64,000 nucleotides of DNA from Selenomonadales bacterium. GTDB taxonomy: Bacteria > Bacillota > Negativicutes > Sporomusales > UBA7701. The notes under the pieces are model-generated. The model did no database searches and was not told the origin of the DNA. It saw nothing but the letters and a program-made list of their open reading frames with translations. Below, one piece after another: positions 1 to 20,566 of this stretch (positions within the stretch are counted from its first letter, which is position 1; each line of letters opens with the position of its first letter). The DNA lies in the NCBI GenBank assembly GCA_029976065.1, contig JARKNV010000043.1, positions 1-64,000 of the forward strand, given 5' to 3'. Both the position numbers and the translations under genes were made by a program.

Positions 1-2475
1 TCGCTGCTCACCACGCTGGCGGTCGTCTTCGGGGTGATGCTCACGTTCGGCCTCAACGGGATCCTCCCCGCGATGACCGAGGCGTTCACGCGCAACCTGC
101 TCTCCGCGGCGGGCAAGGTCGACCTGACCGTCACCAGCGCCTACAACCAGCCGTTCGGCTCCGACGTCGTCGACCGCGTGCTCGCCGTCCCGGACGTGGC
201 GACCGCCAGTCCCGGCGTGCAACGGGTGGCGCCGCTGCCGCGCAGCGCGGACGCCCCGCCGGACGCCCTCGCCCAGCTGGTCGTGGTGGGCGTCGACCTC
301 GGCACGGCCCAGGCCGTCCACGACTTCCCGCTCACCGCCGGTCGCATGCTCGCCGCGGGCGACGGCGCGTCCGTGGTTCTGAACGCCGACCTGGCCGCGG
401 AACTCGCCCTGGGGGTGGGCGACCAGCTCGTGCTGCCGTCGGCGGGCGGCACCGCGCGCTTCCGTGTCGTCGGGCTGCTGGCCACCGCCACCGTCCCCGG
501 GCAGGAACAGGTGTACCTCACCCTGCCCGCAGCCCAGCAGCTCTTCGGGCTGGGCTCCCGGATCACGCAGGTCGAGGCGGCCGTCGCCCCCGGCGCCGAC
601 CGGGCGGCCGTCGAGCGTGCCGTGGTCGCCGCGCTCGGCCCCGACTACCGGGTGGGCGGGCTCTCCAGCGAGTCGACGCTGATCGCCTCGCTCCAGGTGG
701 CGACCTTCTCGTTCAACATGTTCGGCATCTTCGCCCTCGCCACCGCGGGCTTCATCATCGCCAACTCGTTCCGCACCGTCGTGGCAGAGCGTCGCCGCGA
801 CATCGGCATGCTGCGCGCGGTCGGTACCCGGCGGCGCACCGTGATGGGCATGTTCCTTGCCGAGTCGTTGTTCCAGGGCCTGCTCGGCACCGGGCTGGGG
901 CTGCTCGCCGGCTGGGGGCTGGCCGCAGGGATGTTCGCGGTGATGGCGCCGATCTTCGAGCAGGTGATGCACTTCCGCGTCGGCGGCCCGGTCTTCGAGC
1001 CGGCCACCTGGGTGACGTCGATCGCGCTCGGGGTCGGCGTGACGGTCGCCGCCGCCATCCTCCCGGCGCGGGCGGCCGGGCGGGTCACGCCGCTGGAGGC
1101 GATGCGTCCCCAGCTCGGCGAGGTCTACGAACGCCGCGTCGGACGACGTGCCTGGGTCGGCGTCGGCCTCGTCGTGGCGTCGCTGTTCGGACTGGCCACC
1201 GGCCAGGCGAACCTCGTCGGCCTCGGCGCGGTGGTGTTCCTCGTCGGGGTCGCGCTGGTGGCCCCCGCGGTGGTGAACCCGATCGCGGACGCGGCGTCCC
1301 GGCCCCTGGAACTCGTGTTCTCGCGGGAGGGCGCGATCGCGCGCAGCAACCTCCAGCGCAACCCCGGCCGCAGCGCGATCACCGTGACCGCGGTGATGCT
1401 CGGGCTGGCGTCCATCGTGGCGACGATCAGCATGGTCACCTCGATCTTCGCCGGGTTCACCAGCTACCTCGACAAGTCGCTGAGCGCCGACTACCTGCTG
1501 ATCCCGCAGTCGATCATCCTGGGCCAGGGCAACGTTGCCGCCGGCCCGCGCCTGGCCGAGGAGGTGCGCTCCGTCCCCGGGATCGCGGCGAGTTCGACGC
1601 TCCGCCAGGCCCAGGGACGCTCCGACGGCGGCGACGTGCAGGTGATCGGGATCGATCCGGCCAGCTACCTGACGGTGGCGGCCTTCGACTGGAACTCCGG
1701 CTCGTCCGACGCCGCGGTGGCGCAACTCCGTACCGGCCGCTGGGTGATCGCCAACGGCGTCTACGCTGCCCAGCACAACCTCGTGGTCGGACAGGCGCTG
1801 GAGCTCGACACCCCCACCGGGCGGCGGGTGTACCACCTCGCCGGCGTGGGGAACGACTACCTGAACGCCAAGCTGTCCACGCTCTACACCTCGCAGCAGA
1901 ACCTCGCCCGCGACTTCGGCGTCACCGCCGACCTGCTGCTGATGGCCGACCGCAGCCCGGGAGCGGATGCGGACCAGGTGACGCGGCGCCTCGCCCGCGT
2001 GGTGAGCGGCTACCCGGCGTTCCGGCTGTACGAGTCAGCGGCCTGGCGCGCGGAGCAGATGCGGACCTTCAGCCAGACCATCGTGATCTTCGACGCACTG
2101 GTCGCGGCCCTGGCCCTGCCTTCGCTGCTCGCCCTGGTGAACACCCTGGCGATCAGCGTGCTCGGGCGGCGCCGCGAGATCGGCATGCTGCGGGCGGTCG
2201 GCGCCACGCGGCGCCAGGTGCGGCGGATGGTCATGGCGGAGTCGCTGCTGCTCTCGGTGATCGGCACCGGGTTCGGAGCCGTGGCCGGCCTGTGGCTCGG
2301 GTACGCGCTGGTCGCGGCGATGGGCGCCGTCGGGTGGCAGATGCCGTACGCGTTCCCGTGGACCGGCCTGGTGGCCACCGTGGTGGTGGGCATCACCTTC
2401 GGCGTGCTCGCAGCCCTCGGGCCCGCCCGCTCCGCGTCGCGCCTCGACGTGGTGGCCGCACTGCACCAGGAGTGA
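1..2475 (+). CDS. FtsX-family ABC transporter permease, 5' end missing
   Basis: The reading frame is open at the left edge, so the N-terminus lies outside the window; 825 codons are present. Two FtsX cores are visible, each with the cytoplasmic motif before a helix bundle (RRRDIGMLRAVGTRRRTV near residue 260; GRRREIGMLRAVGATRRQ near residue 720), separated by extracytoplasmic domains. This is the two-core layout of macrolide or lipoprotein exporter permeases that work with a separate ATPase, which would be encoded to the left. It ends about 40 bases before the TetR promoter. Codon use is strongly actinobacterial. The substrate cannot be read from the sequence. Confidence 0.9.
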   Translation, partial: SLLTTLAVVFGVMLTFGLNGILPAMTEAFTRNLLSAAGKVDLTVTSAYNQPFGSDVVDRVLAVPDVATASPGVQRVAPLPRSADAPPDALAQLVVVGVDLGTAQAVHDFPLTAGRMLAAGDGASVVLNADLAAELALGVGDQLVLPSAGGTARFRVVGLLATATVPGQEQVYLTLPAAQQLFGLGSRITQVEAAVAPGADRAAVERAVVAALGPDYRVGGLSSESTLIASLQVATFSFNMFGIFALATAGFIIANSFRTVVAERRRDIGMLRAVGTRRRTVMGMFLAESLFQGLLGTGLGLLAGWGLAAGMFAVMAPIFEQVMHFRVGGPVFEPATWVTSIALGVGVTVAAAILPARAAGRVTPLEAMRPQLGEVYERRVGRRAWVGVGLVVASLFGLATGQANLVGLGAVVFLVGVALVAPAVVNPIADAASRPLELVFSREGAIARSNLQRNPGRSAITVTAVMLGLASIVATISMVTSIFAGFTSYLDKSLSADYLLIPQSIILGQGNVAAGPRLAEEVRSVPGIAASSTLRQAQGRSDGGDVQVIGIDPASYLTVAAFDWNSGSSDAAVAQLRTGRWVIANGVYAAQHNLVVGQALELDTPTGRRVYHLAGVGNDYLNAKLSTLYTSQQNLARDFGVTADLLLMADRSPGADADQVTRRLARVVSGYPAFRLYESAAWRAEQMRTFSQTIVIFDALVAALALPSLLALVNTLAISVLGRRREIGMLRAVGATRRQVRRMVMAESLLLSVIGTGFGAVAGLWLGYALVAAMGAVGWQMPYAFPWTGLVATVVVGITFGVLAALGPARSASRLDVVAALHQE

Positions 2476-2512
2476 CGGCCGACCTCACGCCCCTGCGTCC
2501 TCGGTGCTGCGC

Positions 2513-2543
2513 TTGACGAACTGTACCTAGAGGTAGGTACAGT
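2513..2543 (+). promoter_or_regulatory. Promoter with perfect palindromic operator for the TetR-GAPDH operon
   Basis: A TTGACG -35 box (2513-2518) is followed by a perfect inverted repeat, ACTGTACCTA at 2520-2529 and TAGGTACAGT at 2534-2543, with a 4-base spacer. The repeat covers the expected -10 position, and the tetR start codon follows 7 bases later, so the mRNA is probably leaderless. This is the classic arrangement for TetR autorepression. Operator occupancy by this TetR is inferred. Confidence 0.7.
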
Positions 2544-2549
2544 GGCGGC

Positions 2550-3149
2550 ATGGAGTCCCGGGAGCGGCTGGTGGTCGCGATGAGCGAGCTGATGTGGGAG
2601 CGCGGATACGCGGCCACCAGCCCGCGGGAGGTCCGCGAGCGCTCCGGCGTCGGGCAGGGCAGCATGTACCACCACTTCCCCGGCAAGCGCGACCTCGCCC
2701 TCGCCGCCCTCCGGCGCAACTGCGCCGACCTCCTGCCCGCAACGGAGGAGCTCCTCGCCGCGCCCGGGGACCCGCTCGAGAAGCTCACGGCCTACCTCAC
2801 CCGTCCGTTGCCCGCGCTCAAGGGGTGCAAGGTCGGCCGGATGACCCAGGACCCGCTGGTGGCCGCCGACCCGGGACTGCTCGCGCCCGTCGGGGAGGCG
2901 TTCGCGAGGGTCCACCAGGCTCTGGCGGCGGTGATCGGCGAGGCGGTCGCCCTGGGCGAGCTGCGCGACGACCTCGACCCGGAGCGGATCGCCCGGTTGC
3001 TGGCGGCGTCCATCCAGGGCGGCTACGTGCTGGCGATCGCCGCGCAGGACCCCGCTCCGTTCGACGACGCGAGGGCGGGCGCCCTGGACCTGCTGCGGGC
3101 GGCGGCGCCGCCACCACGGACCGACACACAAGGAGAGGAACGACCATGA
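2550..3149 (+). CDS. TetR/AcrR-family transcriptional regulator
   Basis: 199 residues with an N-terminal TetR helix-turn-helix (about residues 10-50; motif GVGQGSMYHHFPGKRDLAL). The C-terminal ligand domain resembles the TetR_C group that follows SMYHHF-type heads. It overlaps the downstream GAPDH gene by ATGA, so the two are translationally coupled. A perfect palindrome sits over its own promoter, so autoregulation is likely. The ligand is unknown. Confidence 0.92.
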   Translation: MESRERLVVAMSELMWERGYAATSPREVRERSGVGQGSMYHHFPGKRDLALAALRRNCADLLPATEELLAAPGDPLEKLTAYLTRPLPALKGCKVGRMTQDPLVAADPGLLAPVGEAFARVHQALAAVIGEAVALGELRDDLDPERIARLLAASIQGGYVLAIAAQDPAPFDDARAGALDLLRAAAPPPRTDTQGEERP

Positions 3150-4150
3150 CCGTACGGATCGGCATCAACGGCTTCGGCCGGATCGGACGCAGCTACCTGA
3201 GGGCGGCGCTCGCCAGCTCCGCCGACGTGGAGGTGGTGGCCGTGAACGACCTCACCGACGCCGCCACGCTCGCGACCCTTCTCGAATGGGACTCGATCTC
3301 GGGCCACCTCGACGGCGTGTCCGTCGACGGCGACGTGATCACCGTCGGCGAGCGGCGCATCACGGTGCTGTCGCAGCGGGACCCGTCCGCCATCGCCTGG
3401 GGCGACCTCGGCGCGGACGTGGTGATCGAGTCCACCGGCTTCTTCACCGACGGCGCGAAGGCCCGTGCCCACCTCGACGGCGGCGCGCGCAAGGTGATCA
3501 TCTCCGCGCCGGCGAAGGGCGACGTCCCCACGTTCGTGCTGGGCGTGAACGACGACACCCTCGACCCCACGTCCGCGGACGTGTTCTCCAACGGGTCGTG
3601 CACCACGAACTCGCTGGCACCGCTGGCGAAGGTGCTCAACGACTCGTTCGGGATCGAGAGCGGGCTGATGACCACCGTCCACGCCTACACCGGCGACCAG
3701 CGGCTGCACGACGCCCCGCACTCCGACCTCCGCCGGGCGCGCGCGGCAGCCCTGTCGACGATCCCCACCTCCTCCGGGGCCGCGAAGGCGATCGGCACGG
3801 TGATCCCCGAGCTCGACGGCCGGCTGACCGGCTTCGCGCTGCGCGTCCCCGTGCCGGTGGGCTCTGTCACCGACCTGACCGTGGTGCTGAACCGCGCGGC
3901 CACCAGGGACGAGATCAACGCGGCCTTCGCCGCGGCGGCCGCGTCCGCTCCGCTCGCCGGGTACCTCCAGTACTCGGAGGCCCCGCTCGTTTCGGCGGAC
4001 ATCGTCGGCAACCCGCACTCGTCGATCTTCGACGCCCCGCTCACCGAGGTGGTCGGACGCCAGGCCAAGGTGCTCGGCTGGTACGACAACGAGTGGGCCT
4101 TCTCCCACCGCCTCGTGGAGTTCTCCGAGAGGATCGGCGCGGCACTCTGA
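3146..4150 (+). CDS. Glyceraldehyde-3-phosphate dehydrogenase paralogue
   Basis: 334 residues, normal GAPDH length. The N-terminal Rossmann motif is INGFGRIGR. The catalytic Cys lies in SNGSCTTNS (about residues 150-158), and the usual second Cys four residues downstream is Ser here. The C-terminus has the conserved WYDNEW motif. The start is ATG at 3146, with AGGAGAGG upstream and a 4-base overlap with tetR. Central gap genes usually sit with pgk and tpi; co-transcription with a TetR regulator suggests an inducible second copy, perhaps for an inhibitor or stress. That role is inference. Confidence 0.93.
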   Translation: MTVRIGINGFGRIGRSYLRAALASSADVEVVAVNDLTDAATLATLLEWDSISGHLDGVSVDGDVITVGERRITVLSQRDPSAIAWGDLGADVVIESTGFFTDGAKARAHLDGGARKVIISAPAKGDVPTFVLGVNDDTLDPTSADVFSNGSCTTNSLAPLAKVLNDSFGIESGLMTTVHAYTGDQRLHDAPHSDLRRARAAALSTIPTSSGAAKAIGTVIPELDGRLTGFALRVPVPVGSVTDLTVVLNRAATRDEINAAFAAAAASAPLAGYLQYSEAPLVSADIVGNPHSSIFDAPLTEVVGRQAKVLGWYDNEWAFSHRLVEFSERIGAAL

Positions 4151-4155
4151 CGCTC

Positions 4156-4172
4156 TCGCCGTCCGGCGGCGA
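4156..4172. terminator. Short GC hairpin between convergent genes
   Basis: TCGCCG and CGGCGA pair across a 5-base loop in the 31-base gap between the GAPDH and glycosyltransferase genes. There is no T tract, so intrinsic termination is weakly supported. Confidence 0.3.
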
Positions 4173-4181
4173 CGGCTCGCC

Positions 4182-5399
4182 TCAGCCGTGGCCGCCGACG
4201 GCCGCCTCGATCCGGGCCCGCGCCGAGGCCACCCCGTCCTCGCCGGCCAGAGCGGCGCGGATCCTCCGTGCCGCCGGCACCAGTGCGTCGACCTGCGCCA
4301 GCGAGGCGGCCAGCCCGTCCGCGGTGAGGGAGGACAACGTCGGGGGCGCCACCCCGAGCTCGTGGAGGCGGCGCGCCCAGAAGGGCTGGTCGCCGAAGAA
4401 GGGGTGGACGACCTGGGGGACGCCCGCCCGCAACGCCGCCGCAACGGTGCCGACGCCGCCGTGGTGGACGATCGCTGCGACCCGCGGCAGCACGGAGGCG
4501 AAGGGGACGGCGTCGACGACGTGGATGTCCTCCGCGGCGGACGTCGCACCCAACCCCGCCCAGCCGGAGACGATCAGCCCCCGCCGCCCGGCCCTCCTCA
4601 ACCCGGCGACCACCTCCGCGGCCAGAGCAGCGGGGTCCCGGTGGGTCATGCTGCCGAAGCCGACGAGGACCGGTGGCGGGCCGTCGTCGAGGAATGCCTC
4701 CAGAGCCGGCGACGCGTGCCAGTCCTGCGCCGCGGGTACCGTCCAGAAGCCCAGTGGTGCCGCGGAGGCGGGCCAGTCCGACGGAGCGGGGAGCAGGTGG
4801 GAGCTCCACGCGCTCAGGATGCCGCCGGCGGCGACGAGGGACGCGAAGCGGGGTGCCCGTGACGCAAGGCCCAGCCTCTCTGCGCGCCAGCGCGCCACCA
4901 TGCCGCGCCAGGGCCGTTCGACGGCATCGGAGAGCGACCAGGCGAGCCGCGCGAGGGCCCGGGGGGTCCGCGCCGGAGCCAGCGGGCTGGCGAACGCCGA
5001 GGTCGCAGGCACCGTCGGGATCAGCTGCGCAGGGATCGCGGGCACGCCGAGCTTCTCCGCGATGGAGGCCCCGCCGAGGGTCTTCTGGGTGAACACCACG
5101 ACGTCCGCGCGCGTCCCGGCGAGCGACGCGAGGTCGTCGAGCCATCGCTGCAGGTAGGGCCGCGCCCGCGACGCGGCCGTGATCGCCGCCCACGTCCCTG
5201 CGCCGACGAGTTCGTCCTGGAGCACGAACAGGCTGTCATCGAGACCGACGAACTCGGCTCCGACCTCGGCGGAGAGGGCGGCGAAGCGGCGCGGGGCGGC
5301 GACCGTCGCCTCATGGCCGGCCTCGGTGAGACCCCGGGCCAGGGCGAGGAACGGCTGGACGTCGCCCCGGCTGCCGGTCGTCAGCAGAAGGACCTTCAC
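4182..5399 (-). CDS. Family 1 (UGT/macrolide-type) glycosyltransferase
   Basis: 405 residues. The N-terminus (VLLLTTGSRGDVQPFLALARGL) is the GT1 acceptor-domain start. The C-terminal signature, with HHGGVGT and GVPQVVHPFFGDQPFW (about residues 315-345), is the nucleotide-sugar-binding motif of UDP-glycosyltransferases. The GTG start at 5399 is chosen because it overlaps the regulator's stop as GTGA and follows GGGAGG. Relatives glycosylate macrolides, sterols or other hydrophobic small molecules; the acceptor here is unknown. A resistance or detoxification role is inferred from the MarR-type partner. Confidence 0.88.
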   Translation of the reverse strand: MKVLLLTTGSRGDVQPFLALARGLTEAGHEATVAAPRRFAALSAEVGAEFVGLDDSLFVLQDELVGAGTWAAITAASRARPYLQRWLDDLASLAGTRADVVVFTQKTLGGASIAEKLGVPAIPAQLIPTVPATSAFASPLAPARTPRALARLAWSLSDAVERPWRGMVARWRAERLGLASRAPRFASLVAAGGILSAWSSHLLPAPSDWPASAAPLGFWTVPAAQDWHASPALEAFLDDGPPPVLVGFGSMTHRDPAALAAEVVAGLRRAGRRGLIVSGWAGLGATSAAEDIHVVDAVPFASVLPRVAAIVHHGGVGTVAAALRAGVPQVVHPFFGDQPFWARRLHELGVAPPTLSSLTADGLAASLAQVDALVPAARRIRAALAGEDGVASARARIEAAVGGHG

Positions 5400-5854
5400 C
5401 GGATCGCCTCCCACTCGTCCAGCAGTTCGGGGAAGCGGCGGGCCATGAAGGCGTAGAGGTCCCGCATGCGCTCCAGCCTCTGCCGGGGAACCGGGTCGTC
5501 ACCGACCAGTTGGAGACCGTGGGCTGCCAGTTCCTCGAAGCGCCGGAGCTCGGCCATCTTCGCCCGGAAGGCCACGCCGAACACATCCTCGCCCGCGGCG
5601 AACCGGTCCCGCCGCGCCCCCGGGGGGCGGACCCGGACGACCAGCCCCAGCAATTCCAGCTTCTGGAGGGCGACGCTCACGCTGCTCTTGGCCGCTCCGA
5701 CGGCCGATGCCAGCTCACCCGGCGACGCGCCGTCCGCCCCGGCGGTGAGCAACCAGCCCACCACCCGGCCCGCCGTGGGACTCAGGCCCATGCCCTCGAA
5801 GTAGCGCCCGACCTCGTCCGCGTACGCCGCACGGGCGGCCTCCCGTTCCTCCAT
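5396..5854 (-). CDS. GbsR/MarR-type winged-helix transcriptional regulator
   Basis: 152 residues. It has a winged-helix core (about residues 25-85; SPGELASAVGAAKSSVSVALQKLELLG) followed by a helical C-terminus like that of GbsR/MarR proteins adjacent to transporters or glycosyltransferases. It overlaps the glycosyltransferase start by 4 bases. An inverted repeat between its -35 and -10 boxes suggests autorepression. Confidence 0.87.
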   Translation of the reverse strand: MEEREAARAAYADEVGRYFEGMGLSPTAGRVVGWLLTAGADGASPGELASAVGAAKSSVSVALQKLELLGLVVRVRPPGARRDRFAAGEDVFGVAFRAKMAELRRFEELAAHGLQLVGDDPVPRQRLERMRDLYAFMARRFPELLDEWEAIR

Positions 5855-5862
5855 GCCTCGAT

Positions 5863-5890
5863 GTTATCGCGTTCGGAACGATCCGAACAA
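5863..5890 (-). promoter_or_regulatory. Promoter and palindromic operator of the MarR-glycosyltransferase operon
   Basis: On the minus strand, TTGTTC (5885-5890) and GATAAC (5863-5868) are separated by 16 bases. The inverted repeat GTTCGG/CCGAAC (5871-5876, 5883-5888) fills the spacer. The start codon at 5854 lies 8 bases past the -10, so the mRNA is probably leaderless. Binding by the adjacent regulator is inferred. Confidence 0.55.
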
Positions 5891-5945
5891 GATGGACGGC
5901 TCGGGACCCACCCCAGAAGGCGACGGGTCGCGCCCGTCCCCCGGC

Positions 5946-6371
5946 TCAGGAGGCGAGGAGCCCGTCGATCCGCTGCGCGAGGACGCCCTCCGGCTGGGCG
6001 CCGACGATCCTGGCCACTGTCCGCCCTCCCCTGGTCATCACCAGGGTGGGGATGCTCCGGGCATCGAAGCGGGCAGCGGCGCGCGGGTTGTCGTCCACGT
6101 TGACCTTCACGACCTTGATCCGGCCGGCGTAGCGCACGGACAGTCGTTGCAGGATCGGGGCGACCATCCGGCACGGCCCGCACCAGGGCGCCCAGAGGTC
6201 GATCAGCACCAGGACGGAGGTGTCGAGGGCGGCGGCGAGGTTGTCGTCCGTGGCGTCCACCAGCCACGGAAGGGGTTCGTGGCAGGAGGCGCACTGGGGC
6301 CGTCCCGACGCCACGACAGGGACGCGGTTCTTCGTGCCGCACGACCCACAGGCGGCGATGCGAGCGCTCAT
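5946..6371 (-). CDS. Thioredoxin with N-terminal zinc ribbon (thioredoxin 2 type)
   Basis: 141 residues. CxxC pairs at residues 8-11 and 27-30 form the zinc ribbon typical of thioredoxin 2. The thioredoxin fold follows, with WCGPC at residues 63-66 and the cis-Pro motif SIPTLV. It is a cytoplasmic disulfide reductase. Its start codon lies only about 20 bases from the junction with AT-rich DNA, so its native promoter appears to be missing. Confidence 0.93.
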   Translation of the reverse strand: MSARIAACGSCGTKNRVPVVASGRPQCASCHEPLPWLVDATDDNLAAALDTSVLVLIDLWAPWCGPCRMVAPILQRLSVRYAGRIKVVKVNVDDNPRAAARFDARSIPTLVMTRGGRTVARIVGAQPEGVLAQRIDGLLAS

Positions 6372-6387
6372 GCCCCCAACCTAGCCC

Positions 6388-6402
6388 GCCCCGCATGCAG
6401 GA
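6388..6402. other. Abrupt junction between actinobacterial and Firmicute-type DNA
   Basis: Left of about 6395 the sequence is very GC-rich actinobacterial DNA. Right of it the sequence is AT-rich and starts inside an HD-GYP domain: the frame reads normally up to KVGVLH and then becomes unrelated residues from the 5' flank of the thioredoxin gene. No transposon end, integrase or tRNA lies at the joint. The shared bases CTGCA may be microhomology. Either an assembly chimera or a real recombination; the former seems more likely. Confidence 0.8.
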
Positions 6403-7051
6403 CTCCAACTTTAATTGAGTTCGGCATTGATTTAATCTCGGATAGATATTTATAGCTAAACGCACTATGCCTTCTCATCGTGCACATTTCTTCGCCGTTT
6501 AATTTACTTGGCTTATTTAATATCTCTAGCGGAATAATTGCTTTTCCAATGTCATGTAGCAACCCAGCAAGCATTAAATTTCCGACCTCTTCATTGTCAT
6601 AACCTAGCCAACTGCCGATTATAGCAGCGATTGCGCCAACCTTCACGCAATGGCGGTATGTAGACTCAGATCTATTTTTTACCATGTTAATGATATGGGC
6701 CGTATCAGCTATACTTTCCATCAATGGTGAATTACCTTTATTGATTCCAACTATCCGTGTGACCGGCATTTGAGTTAACGCGCACTCAGTTTTGTCAAAA
6801 GCATGTAATAGTTCGCCAATAATCTTTTGTCTTGAACAGAACTTTTCTTGGCAATCTTCGTCTATTGGAAGCAATTTATCCGTCCCAGATATTATATAGA
6901 TATCTTGGGAAGCCAGGTTAATCAAGGAGTTTATATGCTCATTAGTTAAAATTGTACCTTTTTTGATTAATATTCTTCCGCTGTCAAGAATAATATCGCG
7001 TCCAAGTACCATACCCGATGTAATGTTTCTTGTACTTACAGGAAAAATCAT
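6395..7051 (-). pseudogene. HD-GYP domain protein, C-terminally truncated at the junction
   Basis: About 218 native residues remain. The N-terminal region (SGMVLGRDIILDSGRILIKKG) resembles the start of many HD-GYP proteins. The HD domain has LLHDIGK near residues 164-170, but the sequence stops before the GYP motif and the remaining metal ligands. The last nine codons before the stop at 6368 come from foreign DNA. An intact protein would be a c-di-GMP phosphodiesterase. The start is ATG at 7051 with AAAGGAGATGAT upstream, and a c-di-GMP-I riboswitch and terminator lie in its leader. Confidence 0.85.
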
Positions 7052-7084
7052 TATTTAGATCATCTCCTTTCTCGTCTAGTAAAC

Positions 7085-7116
7085 ATAATAAAACCCGGAT
7101 ATCGACACCGGGTTAT
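7085..7116 (-). terminator. Riboswitch expression-platform terminator
   Basis: On the minus strand AACCCGG and CCGGGTT pair around a 9-base loop and are followed by a T-rich run (TTTATTATGTTT). It lies between the c-di-GMP-I aptamer and the HD-GYP start, so it is the likely switching terminator. Confidence 0.75.
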
Positions 7117-7126
7117 AAACAAATAT

Positions 7127-7215
7127 GTTGCAACCTGGCGATCGTAGAGATATCTTTAGACCCATGGCTTTGCGTCCTTATCTTTCGATAAGTTTGCCAG
7201 TATTATCTTGTTCAT
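7127..7215 (-). promoter_or_regulatory. Cyclic di-GMP-I (GEMM) riboswitch
   Basis: The minus strand contains the conserved core in order: GGCAAAC, a stem capped by a GAAA tetraloop, GGACGCAAAGCCA, GGGTCTAA, then a variable second stem and the closing GGTTGC. These match the GEMM-I consensus (GNRA tetraloop, GACGCAAAGCC, closing helix). It precedes a terminator and the HD-GYP gene, so c-di-GMP would control expression of a c-di-GMP-degrading enzyme. The outer boundary at 7215 is approximate. Confidence 0.88.
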
Positions 7216-7249
7216 CGTAAAGGTGCAACTAGACTTTTGGGTGAATGCT

Positions 7250-8107
7250 TCAAGCACTTTCGCTGTCAATTGTTTGCTCTAAGGTTTTGAGTCCGGAACT
7301 GTCTTTCTTCGCCGCCGTAGATGCAAGGCTGGCCTTGTTGATTAACGACGCCAATAATCGGCCATGCGAAAGGGACCGGTCACTTACCCGGCCTGCGGTG
7401 GCAACACCAACAGACATGGTCACCGGTATGGTATCCGGAAAATGATACCCGGCCACAATCTGTCTTAAGTCATTTGCCAACGTTGTAATGTCTTCTCGGG
7501 AGCATGTCATAAGGGTGATAAATTCGTCGCCGCCATACCGGCACAGGATTGCCCCTGGCGGCGTATGCGCTTGTAGAAGCGCACCAAATTCTTTCAATAT
7601 GAGATCACCTTTAACGTGACCATATTGCTTGTTAATCTCCCCGAAATTATCGATGTCAGCAAATACCATAGATATTTCCTGGCCGGACGCCATAAGTTTC
7701 AGCGCGTTATAATAAAGATAATCCGTCCTATATAGCCCGGTAAGTAGATCTGTATGTTTCCCTAATTCTTGCTTTATAACGGTCGGAGTTACAATTCCCT
7801 TTAACACATCATGTTCGCACACCAGAAGGGCTGATAATCTATCTTGCTCCATAAGTTCCCTAGCACGCCAGAGAGGCATGTCCGGTTCTACATATGTAAA
7901 ATTCCCACTCATCGCATCGGCCGCAATACGATTCGGGTGCGCCCGCATAGTGTCTTGCCAAGACAATACGCCCACTACTTGTCCTTCATCAATTACCGGA
8001 AAGCAGTCTTGCTCTCTTTCAAAAAATAAAGATTTTACCTGTCGGAGGCCGGCCGTTGCCTCGACGGTCTCCGGAGTAATCATGAAATCAACTATCTTTC
8101 TAATCAT
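7250..8107 (-). CDS. CBS-pair diguanylate cyclase
   Basis: 285 residues. Residues 1-110 form a tandem CBS pair that may bind a nucleotide. Residues 120-275 form a GGDEF domain with an intact active site (YGGDEF at 191-196) and metal-binding DIDNFG. The inhibitory RxxD site that normally lies five residues before GGDEF is absent (Pro and Ala at those positions), so product inhibition may be lost. No membrane segments. It overlaps the upstream 116-residue gene by 4 bases (ATGA), implying a two-gene unit. Confidence 0.9.
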   Translation of the reverse strand: MIRKIVDFMITPETVEATAGLRQVKSLFFEREQDCFPVIDEGQVVGVLSWQDTMRAHPNRIAADAMSGNFTYVEPDMPLWRARELMEQDRLSALLVCEHDVLKGIVTPTVIKQELGKHTDLLTGLYRTDYLYYNALKLMASGQEISMVFADIDNFGEINKQYGHVKGDLILKEFGALLQAHTPPGAILCRYGGDEFITLMTCSREDITTLANDLRQIVAGYHFPDTIPVTMSVGVATAGRVSDRSLSHGRLLASLINKASLASTAAKKDSSGLKTLEQTIDSESA

Positions 8108-8454
8108 AATTCCACACTCTTATGCACTTCCAGCGTAATCTGGATCTGAACTTTAATAATCATCTTTTCATTAGCGATTTTTTCAGCTTCTTCCAAAATC
8201 AGCGCAACCAGTTTGTCCCGCCGAATCATGCTAAGAAGTGATTTGCGGATGACCACTGCTTCAATTAGTGCATGCTCCACTTTTTCGATTTCATATTGAT
8301 CCGGGGATAAAATGTCCACCATTCGCCTGGCTGCCTCAGGGCCAATGGGAGCCATTTTCCCTACAATAAGGACATCCTGCATGGGAGGCATTTCAAACTC
8401 GGTCAACCGCATTTGAATATCTGCCTTACGTGAATTCTCATTGGTATTAGTCAC
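8104..8454 (-). CDS. Uncharacterised protein coupled to the CBS-GGDEF cyclase
   Basis: 116 residues with no family I recognise. It starts at GTG 8454 behind AGGAG and overlaps the cyclase start. The sequence is charged, with helical stretches around residues 45-95 and a final alternating segment (MIIKVQIQITLEVHK) likely to form a beta strand. No membrane segment or signal peptide. The coupling suggests that it partners or tunes the cyclase, which is inference. Confidence 0.7.
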   Translation of the reverse strand: MTNTNENSRKADIQMRLTEFEMPPMQDVLIVGKMAPIGPEAARRMVDILSPDQYEIEKVEHALIEAVVIRKSLLSMIRRDKLVALILEEAEKIANEKMIIKVQIQITLEVHKSVEL

Positions 8455-8565
8455 AAGTTCTCCTCCCCCAATTAGATCATATCTCTTTTATAATACTACA
8501 AATTTTTCCTATTATTAATACTCAACTGGCAAAATCAGCTATGAAAAAACATAAAAGGGGGTGTC

Positions 8566-8596
8566 GCAAAACGCTTTTTTTCAAAAAGCGTTTTGC
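8566..8596. repeat. Subterminal hairpin at left end of the IS
   Basis: GCAAAACGCTTTTT pairs perfectly with AAAAAGCGTTTTGC around a 3-base loop, adjoining the left inverted repeat. Such hairpins may block read-through transcription into the element or hide its ends. Confidence 0.75.
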
Positions 8597-8725
8597 GGCC
8601 CTCTTTTTGTATGGGTAGGCAGAAAATAGATAGGGGAACAAGTAAAAAAGAAACCCTCCGCCGGTTTCCGAGCACAACAAAACAGAGGAAGCCTCTTCCC
8701 CTAAGAAAAAGTCTGGATGTGGTTG

Positions 8726-10336
8726 TCAGGCCGTTTGGGGAATATGCAAATACGTTCCATAGCGACCACTTTGGATTTTGTTGTGAAGCTTGTTTAGGTT
8801 ATACCCCATGCACAACAGAAGAAACTCGGTTTGTACCTTGACGCTGCCCCGCAGCAGAAACCTCCGAAAGCCCATGTCCTGTTTGAGTACCCCGAAGGCT
8901 CCCTCCACTTGAATGGAGCGGTTTATACGTAACAGGATACCTTCCTCGCTTTGAATGCGCGCCTGCATTTCTTGCCGCTGTCTAAGAAAGGTTTTCGATA
9001 CATACAAGTTCTTGCTTCTCTCTTCGAGCGGTGTCTTGCTCTTGCCTTTAATGCATTGGCTCTTATAAGGACAACCGGCACATTCAGTACAGGTATAGAC
9101 CGTTGTCACAATGTTGCAACCGGCTTTTGAATGGGTCTTCTTTTCATACGTTGCCCGGATGGAGTGGCCCTTGTAGCAGAGGTAGCTGTCGCTGTTCTCA
9201 TCGTAAGGCATATTTTCCCGCCTACCGATGTCACTTTTGTACTTGCGCGTTTTGGCTTTGTCGTGATTGGCCGGTTTAATAAACGCGGTTTGCCCGTTTT
9301 CCTCGCACCAGGCATAGTTTTCTTCACTCTCGAATCCCGCGTCGGCTACGGGCCTGGTATACCCTAGTCCTTGGAGCACCTTGAGGATCGGAATGAGGGT
9401 TGGGCTGTCGCTTCGCTCCTGAGAAATCTTAGCGGCTACGACATATTCGGCGTCCACCGCCAAAGTTGCGTTGTAGCCCGGTTTAAGCTGACCGTTTTTC
9501 ATGTGGTCTTCCTTCATCCGCAGGAAGGTTGCGTCCCGGTCTGTCTTAGAAAAGCTGTTGCGTTCCCCGAAGCTGTGGTTGTAGTCGTCGTACTTCTTCT
9601 GTCGGGCCAGATATTCCTCGACCATTTCCACCGCCCGCTGCAACGGCGTTTTTCGCTGCCCTTTGCCGCGGGCAAAGACGATACTTCGCTGAGCTTGTAG
9701 CGTTTTGAGCCGTTTGCGCAGCTTTTTCAGATATTTGGCCTTGATCTTCTCTCCGGCGTAAAAACGCAACCCGAGCTGGCCCGCCAGTGGCGGCAGCTCA
9801 AGCTTCATCTTTTCCTGCATCTTTTGTTCATTCGTTTGTGTCGCTTTCTTCCAGACAAAGCTGTCGCGGTTAGCATTAGCCTCCAGCTTGGTTCCATCGA
9901 TGAATACGCTTGACAGCGATAGTTCGCCTGCATCGGCCAAGTGCCCTACAAGCTGGGTAAATAGGTCATCTACCACCTCAGTCAGCCGCTCGCTGCGAAA
10001 CCGTGCGATCGTGGCATGATCGGGGGCTTTTTCCCGGCCCAGCAGGTACATGAAATTGACATCTCGTCGACAGGCCTGTTCCAGTTGGCGGCTGGAATAG
10101 ATGCCATTCATGTAGCCATATACGAGAATTTTGAATAGACGTTTCGGTGAAATCTCGATTCTCCCTATGCGGGAGTACGCGGCGTGCAATTTGCTGTAAT
10201 TCATCCCTTCCAATACCGCGTTGAGTAATCGCACCGAATCGTCTGACGGAATCATTTCGCCAATGTCCATGGGGATAACCAGTTGATATACATTCCCGTT
10301 TGTTGTATAATCTGGTTGTAATTTCTGGGTCTTCAC
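8726..10336 (-). CDS. IS1182-family DDE transposase
   Basis: Complete and undisturbed. The N-terminus has DYTTNGNVYQLVIP and SDDSVRLLNAVLEGM, typical of IS1182. The DDE core is visible: SSVFIDGTKLEANANR (first Asp), PVADAGFES (second Asp), and a C-terminal EGAFGVLKQDMGFRRFLLRG (Glu). A Cys cluster (CTECAGCPYKSQC) lies between. I chose GTG at 10336 (536 residues). An in-frame GTG at 10372 lies inside the terminal hairpin and is less likely, and neither has a clear ribosome binding site. Confidence 0.93.
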   Translation of the reverse strand: MKTQKLQPDYTTNGNVYQLVIPMDIGEMIPSDDSVRLLNAVLEGMNYSKLHAAYSRIGRIEISPKRLFKILVYGYMNGIYSSRQLEQACRRDVNFMYLLGREKAPDHATIARFRSERLTEVVDDLFTQLVGHLADAGELSLSSVFIDGTKLEANANRDSFVWKKATQTNEQKMQEKMKLELPPLAGQLGLRFYAGEKIKAKYLKKLRKRLKTLQAQRSIVFARGKGQRKTPLQRAVEMVEEYLARQKKYDDYNHSFGERNSFSKTDRDATFLRMKEDHMKNGQLKPGYNATLAVDAEYVVAAKISQERSDSPTLIPILKVLQGLGYTRPVADAGFESEENYAWCEENGQTAFIKPANHDKAKTRKYKSDIGRRENMPYDENSDSYLCYKGHSIRATYEKKTHSKAGCNIVTTVYTCTECAGCPYKSQCIKGKSKTPLEERSKNLYVSKTFLRQRQEMQARIQSEEGILLRINRSIQVEGAFGVLKQDMGFRRFLLRGSVKVQTEFLLLCMGYNLNKLHNKIQSGRYGTYLHIPQTA

Positions 10337-10353
10337 AAACTTGATTTTACAAC

Positions 10354-10391
10354 AAAAAACGGCATCCGGCACTAGCCGGAAGCCGTTTTTT
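10354..10391. repeat. Subterminal hairpin at right end of the IS
   Basis: AAAAAACGGC and GCCGTTTTTT flank a second pairing block (TCCGGC/GCCGGA). It mirrors the left-end hairpin in position and has a T run on both strands, so it could act as a bidirectional terminator protecting the transposase from outside promoters. Confidence 0.75.
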
Positions 10392-10431
10392 GCTGTCGGA
10401 AGGGGCGGCCTTAGCGCGACAGCCCCCCTTC

Positions 10432-10776
10432 CTATAGTTTTACAGCTATGTATTGTCCTGCTTTTACGGGGGTTTTTGTAACATTGGCGCTCGGCAACAG
10501 GCCGGTATCTGTTAGAAACTTCTTGGCCCCGATATAAGCTCCTCCGTTAGTATGCCGGATAGCAAAAGCATTTAGTTCCTTGGCCTCAGTAGGTAAGACC
10601 CCAATTGCTTTGTTTTCTTTGTCATAAGCCAGCATACAATAAGGTTTGCTCTCTAATAAAGATGCGGCAAGTTTATTAAATACTATGCGACCATTGGTTT
10701 TTACTTCGGCCAAAGGTTCAACTTGTTTAGCCCTAGTTCTCTTTTTCGGCTCATAAGTCGTAAATTTGAATTCCAT
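10432..10776 (-). CDS. Small uncharacterised protein
   Basis: 114 residues. ATG at 10776 was chosen because AGGAGGGT lies just upstream; a longer frame to 10824 lacks this. The first 20 residues are basic (EPKKRTRAKQ). The middle (KPYCMLAYDKENKAIGVLP) looks like a small beta domain. No membrane segment. The stop lies 3 bases from the IS end, yet the C-terminus (GQYIAVKL) reads naturally, so truncation is not evident. Confidence 0.7.
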   Translation of the reverse strand: MEFKFTTYEPKKRTRAKQVEPLAEVKTNGRIVFNKLAASLLESKPYCMLAYDKENKAIGVLPTEAKELNAFAIRHTNGGAYIGAKKFLTDTGLLPSANVTKTPVKAGQYIAVKL

Positions 10777-10943
10777 AGTTACCCTCCTATGTGATTCTAT
10801 ACATAGTATTCTCTTTATATCCATTATTTCCTACTTGGGTATTTTCAATCACTAGGATATTCAAAGTAGTACCAAAATTTCTTTGGTTGCCGACCATTTG
10901 CAGGTACGACTTCCGGAGTCGTCTTAGCCTTATACGTAAGGGC

Positions 10944-11516
10944 TTATCCCATAAACTCTCTGAATTTCTTAAAACTAAAACCTATCCCGTGGAAATTAGG
11001 TTCCAAAATAATCGAATCTACTATGGCTCTTCCCAATCCCTGCTTCTGTTCTTGGGTTACTTGAAATCTGTTTAAATCCTTTTTGTTTTGTATATCCTTA
11101 AAAATTGAAGTTATTAAAGGCATTACATCAGATGTACTCTTGCAACATTTTCTCAAGGGAATCAAAACAAATTTAAACTGTTCATTATTATCACTTAAGC
11201 TCCTTGCTCTTCTGGAACGATTCTTAAATTGATGTGGATTTGTTTTAGTAATCAAAATAGCAGGTAGTAAGTCCGTTGCATCTTCTCCATTAATACTATG
11301 CCAAGACAGTACTTCGTCATCAAAATGTCCCATATCTTCCCCAGTACCTATGATAACCGCAGACTTAGTCTTGCATGCTAAAGCTGATAATTTGTAAAAG
11401 TTGTCCCTAATAATATTGCACAAAGGCTCATCCCAACCATAATCAAGTACATAAACATAATACTCACGGTCAGCTTGAGGAGATAACATTTCTAAGCTAT
11501 GAATGACTAACCCCAT
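10944..11516 (-). CDS. Uncharacterised protein, possibly defence-associated
   Basis: 190 residues, not recognised. The N-terminal half alternates strands and helices (EYYVYVLDYGWDEPL, KSAVIIGTGEDMGHFDDEVL), as in a Rossmann-like or TIR-like alpha/beta fold, but no catalytic signature is clear. The C-terminal half is basic. It lies 107 bases downstream of another unknown gene on the same strand, in AT-rich accessory DNA. A partnership with that gene is inferred from position only. Confidence 0.6.
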   Translation of the reverse strand: MGLVIHSLEMLSPQADREYYVYVLDYGWDEPLCNIIRDNFYKLSALACKTKSAVIIGTGEDMGHFDDEVLSWHSINGEDATDLLPAILITKTNPHQFKNRSRRARSLSDNNEQFKFVLIPLRKCCKSTSDVMPLITSIFKDIQNKKDLNRFQVTQEQKQGLGRAIVDSIILEPNFHGIGFSFKKFREFMG

Positions 11517-11623
11517 ATTTCACACTCTATTTCCGTCAATCAAGGACTATTTTCCCAAGTCAGATAGTAGATCGACTCAATTTCATTAAATCAAAATCAG
11601 TCGCCGATTAGGCGTTATTTTTA

Positions 11624-12232
11624 TTAAAAATATGAGTCAATCCCTTTCTCCTCTATCTCTTGAGTTAACAAATCAAATTCATATCTTTTGATTTCATTTG
11701 TTTTACTAAATTCATTAATCATCTCAGTCAATTTTCTTTTTCGATGATCTTTGGATAGTATCGTATTTATTGCCTTAATTTGAGAAAAGGTAGGTTTCTG
11801 GTTGTGAAGCCTAACCACCTCTTCTTTAATTGCTATCATTGGCCCTCTAGGTATAATATCCCAACAAATAATTAACCATTGAATTGCATTGTATAATTGT
11901 TTAGCTGTACTGTCCCATTTGTCCTCAATAGTATCTCCCCCGCCTGCACCACTGCCTCCCACTTCATGGGACTTTAGTGGGTCAAAAAGTGCTGGGCTTT
12001 CTTGACTTAATAATTGTAAAAAATGCTTTCCAGCCCCACTCCCGCAGATAATAGTTTCAATATTATTAACATTAGATTTTAGCTTACACTCAAAAATATA
12101 ATACGTATCACTAAGATTTGCTTCGGCATCACTTCTTTTTGTTTGTCCATTTAACAATCTCAAATGAGCTATTGGTTTAACATAATAATTATTTACAATT
12201 TGTTGCCTACGTCTTTCGCCCCTGCAATTCAT
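11624..12232 (-). CDS. Uncharacterised protein
   Basis: 202 residues, not recognised. It starts at ATG 12232 behind GGAGGAG. Near the middle, CGSGAGKHFLQLL resembles a glycine-rich nucleotide-binding loop but is not a proper Walker A. A glycine-rich linker (GGSGAGGGD) follows, then a helical C-terminus with many Lys, Glu and Gln residues. The sequence begins with a basic segment (RGERRRQQIVNNYY). It belongs to the same-strand run 10432-14137. Confidence 0.6.
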   Translation of the reverse strand: MNCRGERRRQQIVNNYYVKPIAHLRLLNGQTKRSDAEANLSDTYYIFECKLKSNVNNIETIICGSGAGKHFLQLLSQESPALFDPLKSHEVGGSGAGGGDTIEDKWDSTAKQLYNAIQWLIICWDIIPRGPMIAIKEEVVRLHNQKPTFSQIKAINTILSKDHRKRKLTEMINEFSKTNEIKRYEFDLLTQEIEEKGIDSYF

Positions 12233-12301
12233 AAGGCCCTCTCCTCCAACTTTTCGCTTTCAGCAGATAATATACAAGAATCATCAACTTCTCTTCTCAC
12301 T

Positions 12302-13165
12302 TTATAAATCCACTCCGTTATCTTCAAGTATTATTAGCAAACCGGCTATTGTAAATAAGCATTGTGAAACACCCATAGTCATTTTATAGAGGTTCCAAAC
12401 ATCTTCAGGTTTTCTAGATAGCATATACCATCCTATTTCTAAACCTATTTCTTGTTGTTTCATTTCCTGCATTAGGCTTTCTCTATCTTCAAAGACTAAA
12501 AACCGATGTTTAATTTTATTGTATGCTCGTACCAATACGCCCCGTGTTTCTGACTTTGGAGATTTTGAAGTATCCATTGCATCGCAAATTACGTAAGCAT
12601 AATCTTTAGGGTTGGGAACATCTATTGCAGTAATTCCAAGGCTTTTATATCTTCTTGCTGCTTCAATGATTTGAATAGCCGATTGCTGATACAACTGAGC
12701 AAAGCCATTATATTTATTAGGGTCGCGAGCAAATTGCTGTTTCAGATCATCAAGGTGAGGAATATTAATCATTTCTGACAACTGTATGCCTTCATCAATG
12801 GAGTCTACTATAAACCTATGGAATTGCCCGTGTTCTGTCTCGCTCAGAACATACCGTTTAAAGATACTTTGTTTATTTCTGTGCTTTATCGCGAAGCATA
12901 ATGCACCTAAATCCTCTAACCCACCTACAAATTCAGCTAATAATCTTGCAATGACTACAATTTGAACTCTGGCAGAGTCGCCTTCCTTTTTGGCTTTCTC
13001 TGTTGCCTTCTCTTCATCCAATAGCAAAACATGTTTATGTACCAGCATCGCCGTATCATCACATTCACATCCTGCGCGATACAGTCCTATGGCAGAAACT
13101 GGTTTCCCCATATATGGAAGGCTGACAAACTCTCGCAGAAAGGCTTTATCTACCGCTAGAAGCAT
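12302..13165 (-). CDS. Uncharacterised mostly helical protein with HEPN-like motif
   Basis: 287 residues starting at ATG 13165 behind AAGGAAAG. Mostly helical. The stretch VRAYNKIKHRF (residues 212-222) has Arg213 and His220, fitting the R-x(4-6)-H active-site pattern of HEPN ribonucleases, and YNKIKH recurs in that superfamily. The final helices (CLFTIAGLLIILED) are hydrophobic. HEPN assignment rests on this motif and helical content only. The neighbours are an HNH-like gene upstream and an unknown gene downstream. Confidence 0.6.
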   Translation of the reverse strand: MLLAVDKAFLREFVSLPYMGKPVSAIGLYRAGCECDDTAMLVHKHVLLLDEEKATEKAKKEGDSARVQIVVIARLLAEFVGGLEDLGALCFAIKHRNKQSIFKRYVLSETEHGQFHRFIVDSIDEGIQLSEMINIPHLDDLKQQFARDPNKYNGFAQLYQQSAIQIIEAARRYKSLGITAIDVPNPKDYAYVICDAMDTSKSPKSETRGVLVRAYNKIKHRFLVFEDRESLMQEMKQQEIGLEIGWYMLSRKPEDVWNLYKMTMGVSQCLFTIAGLLIILEDNGVDL

Positions 13166-13303
13166 ATCTATCTTTCCTTCATCTTTTCAGGTTAATTTCC
13201 AATGTGTCATTCACTATTTTGAAGTCAGGATAAACTTTAAAAAGGTCAATACGTAGAGACCCCAGCCGCTGTGGCTGCTACTATTGGGGCATTAATAAAT
13301 CTA

Positions 13304-14137
13304 TCACCTATCCCGCCAAAATCGCCTATGCCGTGGGAATTGAAACTCACTAGAAATCCCGGCTTCACCGCATATTTCCGAAAATATTTTTAGTATTTCA
13401 GCACGCGTCAAATCAAACCAAGCACCTAATTGCCTGTCGTTAATACAGTAAAATTGTCGTTCATCACTTGTCGAACCCAGATGGATATCATTAGTCCTTA
13501 CAGCTAGTTCATACCTTTCGCGTAATGCGCGTAGTAAATCGCCAATGGCGTCCATTTCCCTGCGCCATAATGGATTAGATAAATAGGCTTTCCCCTTTGA
13601 TTTTTGAAGTACTCCCCCATCCCTTGCTCTTAGCGCCCCTGTATTAATAGCAGTGATAGTATCTTCTATAGCTTTATCAAAATTCTCCATTGACCCTTCT
13701 TGATCAAATGGATCTTGAAACGCTGGACGGTCTAAACATTGCGCAAAAAATTTAATTATTTCTCGATCATCTACAAGATTAATCACGCCATTATTTTGTA
13801 TTTCTAACAGAGCAGCTTTTTCTGAGAGATGCTTCCATTCAAGCAAAATATCACTGGAATATAGTACTGGATCATTATCAATCAGTTTGGCACAATTTTG
13901 GCAAAGCCATATGCCATTGTCAATTGATTTTCTTTCTTCTGCGGTTAGCTGAGAATCATATCTTGGACCACCTAAAGATGCAGCGCTAATATGTGCCGCA
14001 ACGCCAATATTAATTGATCCTGCTGAATCTATCTGCGGACCGCTAGTTAATTTTCTACAATTAGGGTTGGAGCATCTAAAGCCGACTCGTTTAGCAAGCG
14101 TTTCCTTTGTAGTCATGTCAAAATTGTCACGACTCAT
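13304..14137 (-). CDS. HNH-like zinc-binding domain protein
   Basis: 277 residues. Residues 15-90 form an HNH-type treble-clef domain: C22 and C27 (RCSNPNCRKLTSGP), the AAHI histidine H49, Asn74 in DNGIWLC, and C79/C82 in CQNCAKLIDND. The last catalytic or metal His of active HNH nucleases is not present at the usual place, so this may bind DNA or zinc rather than cut. Similar heads occur in front of bacterial NTPase and defence proteins. Residues 150-270 are a helical domain I do not recognise. Confidence 0.7.
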   Translation of the reverse strand: MSRDNFDMTTKETLAKRVGFRCSNPNCRKLTSGPQIDSAGSINIGVAAHISAASLGGPRYDSQLTAEERKSIDNGIWLCQNCAKLIDNDPVLYSSDILLEWKHLSEKAALLEIQNNGVINLVDDREIIKFFAQCLDRPAFQDPFDQEGSMENFDKAIEDTITAINTGALRARDGGVLQKSKGKAYLSNPLWRREMDAIGDLLRALRERYELAVRTNDIHLGSTSDERQFYCINDRQLGAWFDLTRAEILKIFSEICGEAGISSEFQFPRHRRFWRDR

Positions 14138-14293
14138 AATACTTCATCCTCCATCTATTTACTAAACAAGCTTTTTCTTATGCCTGATCATACTGCCATT
14201 TCAAATATACAATGTTGTTTTATAAAGCAAAAGGAAAAATTATCATTCTGGAGAAAACAACCAACAAATGTTAATTGTTAGAGGGGAGTAAAG

Positions 14294-14944
14294 ATGAGCA
14301 TAACCGGGATAGATACTTTGGTAAAAGTTAAACATTGGGCACAGTGGCCTACAGATTTGCATAACAAACCCGAACAAATAAAGAGACAGATTTCCGCGAA
14401 CAAGGCTAAGCATCAACCATTAGAAGTTAATATGGAGACACAGACGGGTACCTTTGCTGGTTCCGGCAAAAAGCCCTATTCAACAACTTTAAGCAAGTGT
14501 AACTGTAATGATTTTGTGAAAAGAAAGTTGCCATGCAAGCACATGTACAGTCTTGCAAACTATCTTGGGTATATTGAACTTTATAAGCCAGAAACTGAAT
14601 ATGATGAGAGCATGGTATTACTGCGAGCATATGAACCAACCGACGATTGGGGCAAATGGGACCCTGGCGTACACAAGGTCTGGAGTCAAAAAGCCCGATA
14701 TCATAGAGCATTTGAAGAAGAATTCGATATTGCTGACTTTTCGAAGGAAAATCAGTTTGCCAGGATTAATGGGTATTCAGTTTCACTCGAATCATGTTCA
14801 TGCCCGGACTTTCATGAGCGCCAATTTCCGTGCAAACATATTTATCGTCTTGCCGCAGAACTAGAGTTGGTCGAAGAACCTAAAACAGCGTCCCGCCAAT
14901 ACGAAATTCCGGAAGGCGCAGCTATGATCACTATAAAGTTATAG
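14294..14944 (+). CDS. Protein with two SWIM zinc fingers
   Basis: 216 residues made of two similar halves, each with a SWIM finger of CxC-x9-CxH form: C69/C71/C81/H83 and C168/C170/C180/H182 (CNCNDFVKRKLPCKH and CSCPDFHERQFPCKH). SWIM fingers mediate nucleic-acid or protein contacts and often occur with recombination or SNF2-like factors. None is encoded beside it. The start is ATG 14294 behind GAGGGG. It is transcribed opposite to the adjacent accessory genes. Confidence 0.8.
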   Translation: MSITGIDTLVKVKHWAQWPTDLHNKPEQIKRQISANKAKHQPLEVNMETQTGTFAGSGKKPYSTTLSKCNCNDFVKRKLPCKHMYSLANYLGYIELYKPETEYDESMVLLRAYEPTDDWGKWDPGVHKVWSQKARYHRAFEEEFDIADFSKENQFARINGYSVSLESCSCPDFHERQFPCKHIYRLAAELELVEEPKTASRQYEIPEGAAMITIKL

Positions 14945-14966
14945 CTTCCCTAATATCGGACAAACA

Positions 14967-15935
14967 TTATCCCATAGCGATATTGGGTTTACAAATTTTA
15001 CATGGCTTATTCCTTTTCTCAACTGCGTACGTTTCTCCATATGGTTTTATTTCCAATTGGGGATTTCTATTTTTGAAACGCCGGACTACTGGACACCCCA
15101 CTAAATGATAGCAATGAGAGGAAGGCAGCGTCACAATACCAAGCTTACCCTGCAGATAATCAAAGAGCAGTATTAATTTCAGGGAATTGGTAACGGTACC
15201 ATAGTCAGTATCACCACCATGAAGAATTGCATGACGACTTAAGAAAGATTTAGGTGTTATGCCATGTTCAAAGTCAACCAGAATGATATGAAAAAGAAAC
15301 TCTTGTATTTTTTGATCAAATGAATATCGATAAGACTCATCCAGTAGTTTCTTATAATATTCTTTCAGCATTTTTCCAGGCATTCTGCCATTATGACAAT
15401 ATCCATCGACAATAATACCTTCAATCTGCGGTAAAATGGTTGGTACAGAAAGATAGTAATTCCCTGCGTTATGGGCAGTAACAGCTTGTCTTATAATAGG
15501 CATACGTTTTGCAAGCCATTTTTTCTTTCCCCACTCGCCTGAGAGCTTTTCAATTTCATCCGCATCAAATCTCTCAATGAATAATTGATCAACCTTTTCT
15601 CGTATTGCTTCTGGACCAAATCGGTTATACGCTCTAATGATCTTCTTCATCTCTGGAATATATAGTCCTCCATAAGGAGGCCATCCTAATTCGACCATAA
15701 TAGCAGAATATTGCTGATTAATATTCCCAAATTCATTTATATTTCTGTGGAATTGGTTCATCATTTCCGTAATTCTAAAAACACCGTTTTCGGTCCAAGC
15801 TCGAAATATTTCTGTGGCTTGTTTTACATATTGCCCGCTTAAATATTGATAAGCTGAAGATGAATAGCTCATTTGGCTGAATCTATTTATTCTCTCGATA
15901 GTTTCTAGATAACGAAATATATTGTTATTGAACAT
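14967..15935 (-). CDS. HEPN-like protein with C-terminal Cys-rich (Ada-type) segment
   Basis: 322 residues from ATG 15935, chosen for GGAGG six bases upstream. Mostly helical, with SRHAILHG near residues 233-240, where Arg234 and His239 fit the RxxxxH HEPN ribonuclease motif. The last 60 residues (HLVGCPVVRRFKNR and KPCKICKP) look like the small metal-binding module of Ada or competence-type proteins. The combination suggests an RNA- or stress-directed effector. The motifs are seen; the function is inferred. Confidence 0.65.
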   Translation of the reverse strand: MFNNNIFRYLETIERINRFSQMSYSSSAYQYLSGQYVKQATEIFRAWTENGVFRITEMMNQFHRNINEFGNINQQYSAIMVELGWPPYGGLYIPEMKKIIRAYNRFGPEAIREKVDQLFIERFDADEIEKLSGEWGKKKWLAKRMPIIRQAVTAHNAGNYYLSVPTILPQIEGIIVDGYCHNGRMPGKMLKEYYKKLLDESYRYSFDQKIQEFLFHIILVDFEHGITPKSFLSRHAILHGGDTDYGTVTNSLKLILLFDYLQGKLGIVTLPSSHCYHLVGCPVVRRFKNRNPQLEIKPYGETYAVEKRNKPCKICKPNIAMG

Positions 15936-15956
15936 CAGTTGCCTCCACACTAGCAA

Positions 15957-16306
15957 TCTCCCTACTAATCTGATTTTTCATTAATTCATATTTTCCTGCA
16001 AATTACATCTAGACGCAGTTCATATTCATTCGATTATCATGAATTCAATGTACATCCTAGAAGGACATCCAATGAAACTGGAAATCCAGACCATTGACAA
16101 AAAGGAAAAAACCTGAACTGGCCTTCCCAATAGCGGAGAAGCAAATTCAGGGCCGATATGAGAAAATAGCCTACAAACCCTTATAAATCAAGGATTCATA
16201 GGCTCTCCTTCCAAGTCGGTTTTCATAGTTTTTAATACGTAAAACGCTAAGTCTGAAAACCTAATGTTTTCTAACCATGTCCGGGGAAACATATACCATC
16301 TTTTCC
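15957..16306. other. Intergenic region without recognisable gene
   Basis: This 350-base AT-rich stretch separates the accessory genes from rlmD. I see no frame with a good start and ribosome binding site. A hairpin (AGCCTA at 16168-16173 with TAGGCT at 16199-16204) and a second inner pairing (CCTT/AAGG) are present. No integrase, att-type repeat or tRNA was identified. Confidence 0.5.
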
Positions 16307-16349
16307 CACAACCCTTGAATCCTTGCTACACAAGGCTTCAAGGGTTGTG
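16307..16349. terminator. Strong hairpin at the 3' end of rlmD
   Basis: CACAACCCTTGAA (16307-16319) pairs perfectly with TTCAAGGGTTGTG (16337-16349), and an inner CCTTG/CAAGG stem extends it. The rlmD stop codon lies in the right arm. The T-rich tail (TTTTCTTT) is on the plus strand, so it best stops plus-strand transcription entering rlmD, while the stem may also stabilise the rlmD mRNA end. It coincides with the change from AT-rich to GC-rich sequence. Confidence 0.6.
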
Positions 16350-20152: not shown

Positions 20153-20156
20153 TACC

Positions 20157-20550: not shown

Positions 20551-20566
20551 AACGGCACCTCCCTTG

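Follow-up and report, generated by a model that had tools for sequence, protein, structure and literature searches.

We propose with high confidence that contig JARKNV010000043.1 of a Selenomonadales bacterium MAG (GCA_029976065.1) is chimeric, a piece of an actinobacterial chromosome having been falsely joined to the HD-GYP gene of an unrelated host. Our analysis covered the first 64 kb of this 140,428-base contig (64,000 nucleotides, hereafter the window). DNA from two sources meets there at adjacent breakpoints that share no homology; the foreign part lies at the contig end, the host gene is broken, and both counterparts are intact in other genomes. Most likely, the joint reflects a routine mistake of library preparation or assembly rather than new biology. 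The MAG comprises 82 contigs and 3.42 Mb, with 87.9% completeness and 6.03% contamination. The features on both sides of the joint are listed in Table 1.

Table 1. Features of the window on either side of the joint (. denotes no strand)
Feature	Position	Strand	Evidence
Foreign terminal segment, Propionibacteriaceae-type (PROP3-like) chromosome	1..6394	.	98.66% identity to L030:9968-16360
FtsX/MacB-type ABC permease, truncated by contig start	1..2475	+	ORF; Pfam FtsX and MacB_PCD on 34-2475; 99% to PROP3
TetR-family regulator	2550..3149	+	Pfam TetR_N
Glyceraldehyde-3-phosphate dehydrogenase (GAPDH)	3146..4150	+	Pfam Gp_dh_N and Gp_dh_C
EryCIII/UDPGT-like glycosyltransferase	4182..5414	-	Pfam EryCIII-like_C, Glyco_transf_28
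MarR-family regulator	5396..5854	-	Pfam MarR_2
Thioredoxin, intact	5946..6371	-	Pfam Thioredoxin; translation identical to L030 15912-16337
Joint, blunt	6394..6396	.	6394 last PROP3 base, 6395 unassigned, 6396 first host base; three-way comparison, alignment ends
Host contig body	6396..64000	.	MAG with Spo0A and LpxC; parts match G002 contig 25 at 81-92%
Host HD-GYP gene, 5' part	6396..7051	-	218 whole codons retained; truncated immediately ahead of the HHERxxGxGYP coding stretch
c-di-GMP-I riboswitch upstream of HD-GYP gene (host)	7126..7208	-	Rfam RF01051, 75.1 bits

Two genomes meet at a joint resolved to one base

The initial annotation, made from the letters alone, had placed a junction between two unrelated genomes within 6380-6415. 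A three-way comparison confirmed this junction and resolved it to one base (6394|6395|6396). Identity to the actinobacterial isolate PROP3 stopped at 6394 and identity to G002, a genome of the MAG's own genus, started at 6396, with the single base between them assigned to neither. With a 1200-base query around the joint, the PROP3 genome covered bases 1-594 and G002 covered bases 596-1200. PROP3 reads CTCGC.. at the joint versus ATGCAGG.. in the window, and TGCAG was found in the host relative only. Because the overlap bases are present on the host side only, the 5-base overlap (CTGCA) that had been considered is rejected, and the join is blunt, without microhomology.

A Pfam scan revealed no mobile-element gene adjoining the joint, the neighbours being thioredoxin and HD-GYP. 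The scan covered genes from 1 to 10.8 kb and found a single transposase, of IS type, at 8726-10372, more than 2 kb from the joint. This agrees with the earlier observation that the joint carries no mobile-element end. Transfer by a mobile element or by homologous recombination found no support, as no element end, adjoining integrase or transposase, or shared sequence was seen at the joint.

The left segment closely matches a Propionibacteriaceae-type chromosome

The left segment (1-6394) matched L030, a locus of the entry 'MAG: Actinomycetota bacterium isolate PROP3', at 98.66% identity over 6394 bases, collinearly and with one gap. Each of the first six kilobases has a GC content of 72-76%. 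When the ABC permease (34-2475) was used as a query against genome contigs, 12 loci were recovered. The top locus was L030, 99% identical; Propionibacteriaceae or Propionicimonas appears in the titles of five of the remaining eleven. The start codon of the thioredoxin gene lies 23 bases from the breakpoint. The left segment differs from PROP3 by 85 substitutions, 81 of which were counted within the six genes (GAPDH taken from 3185, the glycosyltransferase/MarR overlap omitted), with 13, 9 and 59 at codon positions 1, 2 and 3, respectively. The placement of 59 of the 81 genic substitutions at third codon positions indicates that the differences are ordinary strain divergence of functional genes on a working chromosome.

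Base composition and the reading without a joint

To the right of the joint, GC content is 35-52% from ~6.4 to 16.3 kb, jumps abruptly at ~16.3 kb and is mostly 57-69% from there to 64 kb; both the lower-GC and the higher-GC parts contain stretches that match G002. The MAG carries Spo0A and LpxC, which we take to identify it as a diderm spore-forming Firmicute. Of the earlier label 'AT-rich Firmicute-type' for the right side, the second half was therefore upheld, and the first half applies only as far as ~16.3 kb.

Strong swings in GC within the host contig, such as the rise between 15 and 18 kb (36.5% to 66.5%), would be in keeping with a window that has no joint at all and in which composition changes inside one genome, for example at a GC-rich host island. 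The tetranucleotide comparison proposed in the initial annotation also did not separate the left side. Its z-scores correlated at 0.655 with the host and at 0.642 with the PROP3 flanks, the left-side value standing at the 5th percentile among 239 chunks of the host, whose mean was 0.807, and the host's own AT-rich 6396-12789 deviates more than the foreign piece (0.408 to the host). However, the left side reproduces part of an actinobacterial chromosome almost identically and collinearly. Window 1-6000 has 73.3% GC, and none of 2317 overlapping 6-kb blocks, drawn from other parts of the MAG that make up about half of it, reaches that value (maximum 69.3%). In our view, a composition change within a single genome is refuted by the PROP3 and G002 alignments that meet at the joint, and we regard it as extremely improbable.

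The PROP3 locus continues past the breakpoint and folds strongly there

In PROP3, L030 extends beyond the breakpoint, where genes for DUF3048 and xanthine/uracil permease follow. In four of eight longer related loci, the same ABC permease is followed at 0.2-1.9 kb by a blastn match to the xanthine/uracil permease (present in L031, L032, L036 and L037; absent in L034, L035 and L038; L033 ends there). This linkage suggests that the PROP3 gene order across the breakpoint is credible.

An inverted repeat with 33-nt arms (16352-16384 and 16435-16467, 85% complementary) holds the PROP3 breakpoint in its 5' arm. The breakpoint lies three bases ahead of a 20-base tandem repeat, which is closely followed by a 13/26-base repeat. 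Folded as a single DNA strand, L030 16352-16467 gave -46.5 kcal/mol, compared to a locus mean of -26.5 (SD 5.7) over 1117 windows. This fold exceeds all 1117 scanned windows, for a stretch that was picked because of its repeat; by a fairer measure, an equally strong fold is found nearby at 1.1% of 439 grid positions. The folding scan detected no comparable fold on the host side near the joint. The wider PROP3 region L030:16352-16515 consists of the GC-rich strong hairpin followed by the 13/26-base tandem repeats and is situated between divergent thioredoxin and DUF3048 genes.

The right segment begins inside a broken host gene

The right side had been described as starting inside an HD-GYP domain, and the gene at this position is indeed a truncated HD-GYP gene. 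Its product covers the Pfam profiles only in part, HD to position 71 of 116 and HD_5 to position 96 of 170. In a comparison of the truncated protein with 60 genomes the closest homologue was that of G002 (91%), followed by one at 61%. The G002 homologue is complete, with 295 aa, and contains VLQHHERLNGSGYP. Compared up to window position 28000, the window aligned with G002 contig 25 at 6396-8554 (92%), 10422-10778 (87%), 16259-21334 (81%) and 23799-28000 (87%). The remainder of the host HD-GYP gene and the G002 downstream sequence were not found elsewhere in the MAG, where only weak matches to HD-GYP paralogues were seen. This neither helps nor hurts the chimera reading, as a gap expected at 87.9% completeness would look alike.

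Several other features of the right segment were noted. Window 8555-10421 is an IS-type insertion with a DDE transposase (8726-10372; Pfam DDE_Tnp_1_6, DUF772). Its flanks lie ~15 bases apart in G002, and a clear target-site duplication was not apparent. The AT-rich stretch 6396-8554, which carries GGDEF-CBS and HD-GYP genes and the c-di-GMP-I riboswitch, is present in the MAG and G002 and missing at the G001 counterpart; between G001 contig 1 724095-725165 and G002 contig 25, ~2.6 kb (measured in G002) has been inserted or lost. Three other MAG contigs carry short stretches similar to the riboswitch. Window 10779-16258 is mostly 35-40% GC within a chromosome of ~60% GC, is unmatched in the G002 locus alignment and looks like an accessory island. 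A T-box leader is present at 39074-39285 (104.6 bits).

The joint was found in no other genome examined

We searched for the joint and for further PROP3 DNA. The joint was spanned in none of 10 genomes searched with the 1200-base query and in none of 30 genomes of PROP3's genus, for which up to 14 first-look candidates were scored per genome; five genomes were in both sets. The 10 genomes included the four others from the host genus, none of which has the joint (the query held 594 left-side bases). The joint region had no megablast match in plasmid and phage collections, and an exact 33-base joint pattern had no match in viral contigs; these absences say little about the chimera question. When the whole MAG was searched with 16.4 kb of L030, one piece was 99% identical, namely the window segment, and the others were at most 86% (40 of 483 first-look candidates scored). 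A comparison of 1.76 Mb of the 3.42-Mb MAG with 367 kb of the ~3.7 Mb of PROP3 revealed no further PROP3 piece of at least 90% identity over 200 bases.

With 6.03% contamination in the MAG, the contig might conceivably be correct but misbinned, and come from a third organism that holds DNA of both kinds. However, the two sides have different closest relatives among those examined, the border is exact, and no genome examined around the joint holds both sides. We therefore give this possibility almost no weight.

Discussion

The chimera reading is strongly supported because each side is intact elsewhere, with PROP3 L030 continuous past the border and the G002 HD-GYP gene whole, and because the two alignments stop and start at neighbouring bases. 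The host's own sequence does not prove a false join, as the HD-GYP remainder was not found elsewhere in the MAG. We suggest that a piece of the chromosome of a co-occurring Propionibacteriaceae-type (Propionicimonas-like) organism was fused end to end with a break in the host HD-GYP gene. The fusion may have been an artificial DNA molecule formed during library preparation, or a wrong join made in assembly, and the whole chimeric contig would then have been binned with the host. We infer that both organisms were in the sample and that library preparation or assembly introduced the error. The strong PROP3 hairpin next to tandem repeats may have favoured a chimeric molecule or an assembly dead end, and could have done so by stalling a polymerase or breaking coverage.

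The initial annotation had left the choice between a chimeric contig and an unusual recombination. The first option is strongly supported, and the second found no backing in shared bases, an element gene or a second genome with the joint among those examined. A genuine and very recent transfer was also weighed, in which non-homologous end joining would have inserted 6.4 kb or more of Propionibacteriaceae-type chromosome into the host HD-GYP gene. The window contains no N and the joint is internal to one contig, illegitimate end joining could produce a blunt joint, and the left side does not clearly depart from the host range in tetranucleotide usage. Nevertheless, the left side is nearly identical to chromosomal genes of another organism, the joint has neither shared bases nor an adjoining mobile-element gene, the host gene is cut, and the four other host-genus genomes, the plasmid and phage collections and the viral contigs (33-base exact pattern) do not hold the joint. 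Moreover, the foreign piece occupies the contig from base 1 over 6.4 kb, such that a single border is visible and a second is unseen. We consider such a transfer very unlikely. Equally doubtful is its corollary, that a diderm spore-forming Firmicute captured this DNA by blunt end joining and was caught before sequence amelioration. If true, it would offer a rare view of DNA passing between phyla without homology.

On the preferred reading of a chimeric contig, the finding is of low biological interest, the observation being correct and its cause most likely an artefact. Its value is in quality control, and the first 6.4 kb of the contig should be dropped from the MAG. The foreign piece adds genes, including one for GAPDH, to a Firmicute genome and could pass for cross-phylum gene transfer.

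Two kinds of known artefact resemble this joint. Work on human tumour DNA describes chimeric reads that are artefacts of library preparation and contain inverted-repeat or palindromic genome sequences (PMC10908179). As in those reads, the breakpoint here lies within an inverted repeat of the template; in contrast to them, two genomes are joined here, and the link is one of analogy. Another parallel is inter-species misassembly in MAGs, as defined in the GUNC paper. That paper names misassembly as the source of chimeric contigs and as relatively rare compared with mis-binning (PMC8201837), the rarity being a point against the present reading. As in the cases covered there, fragments from two sources share one contig with one source per side, and the bin is fragmented and contaminated. 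Nothing essential differs, the particulars here being a joint that is blunt and a PROP3 side that breaks at a hairpin.
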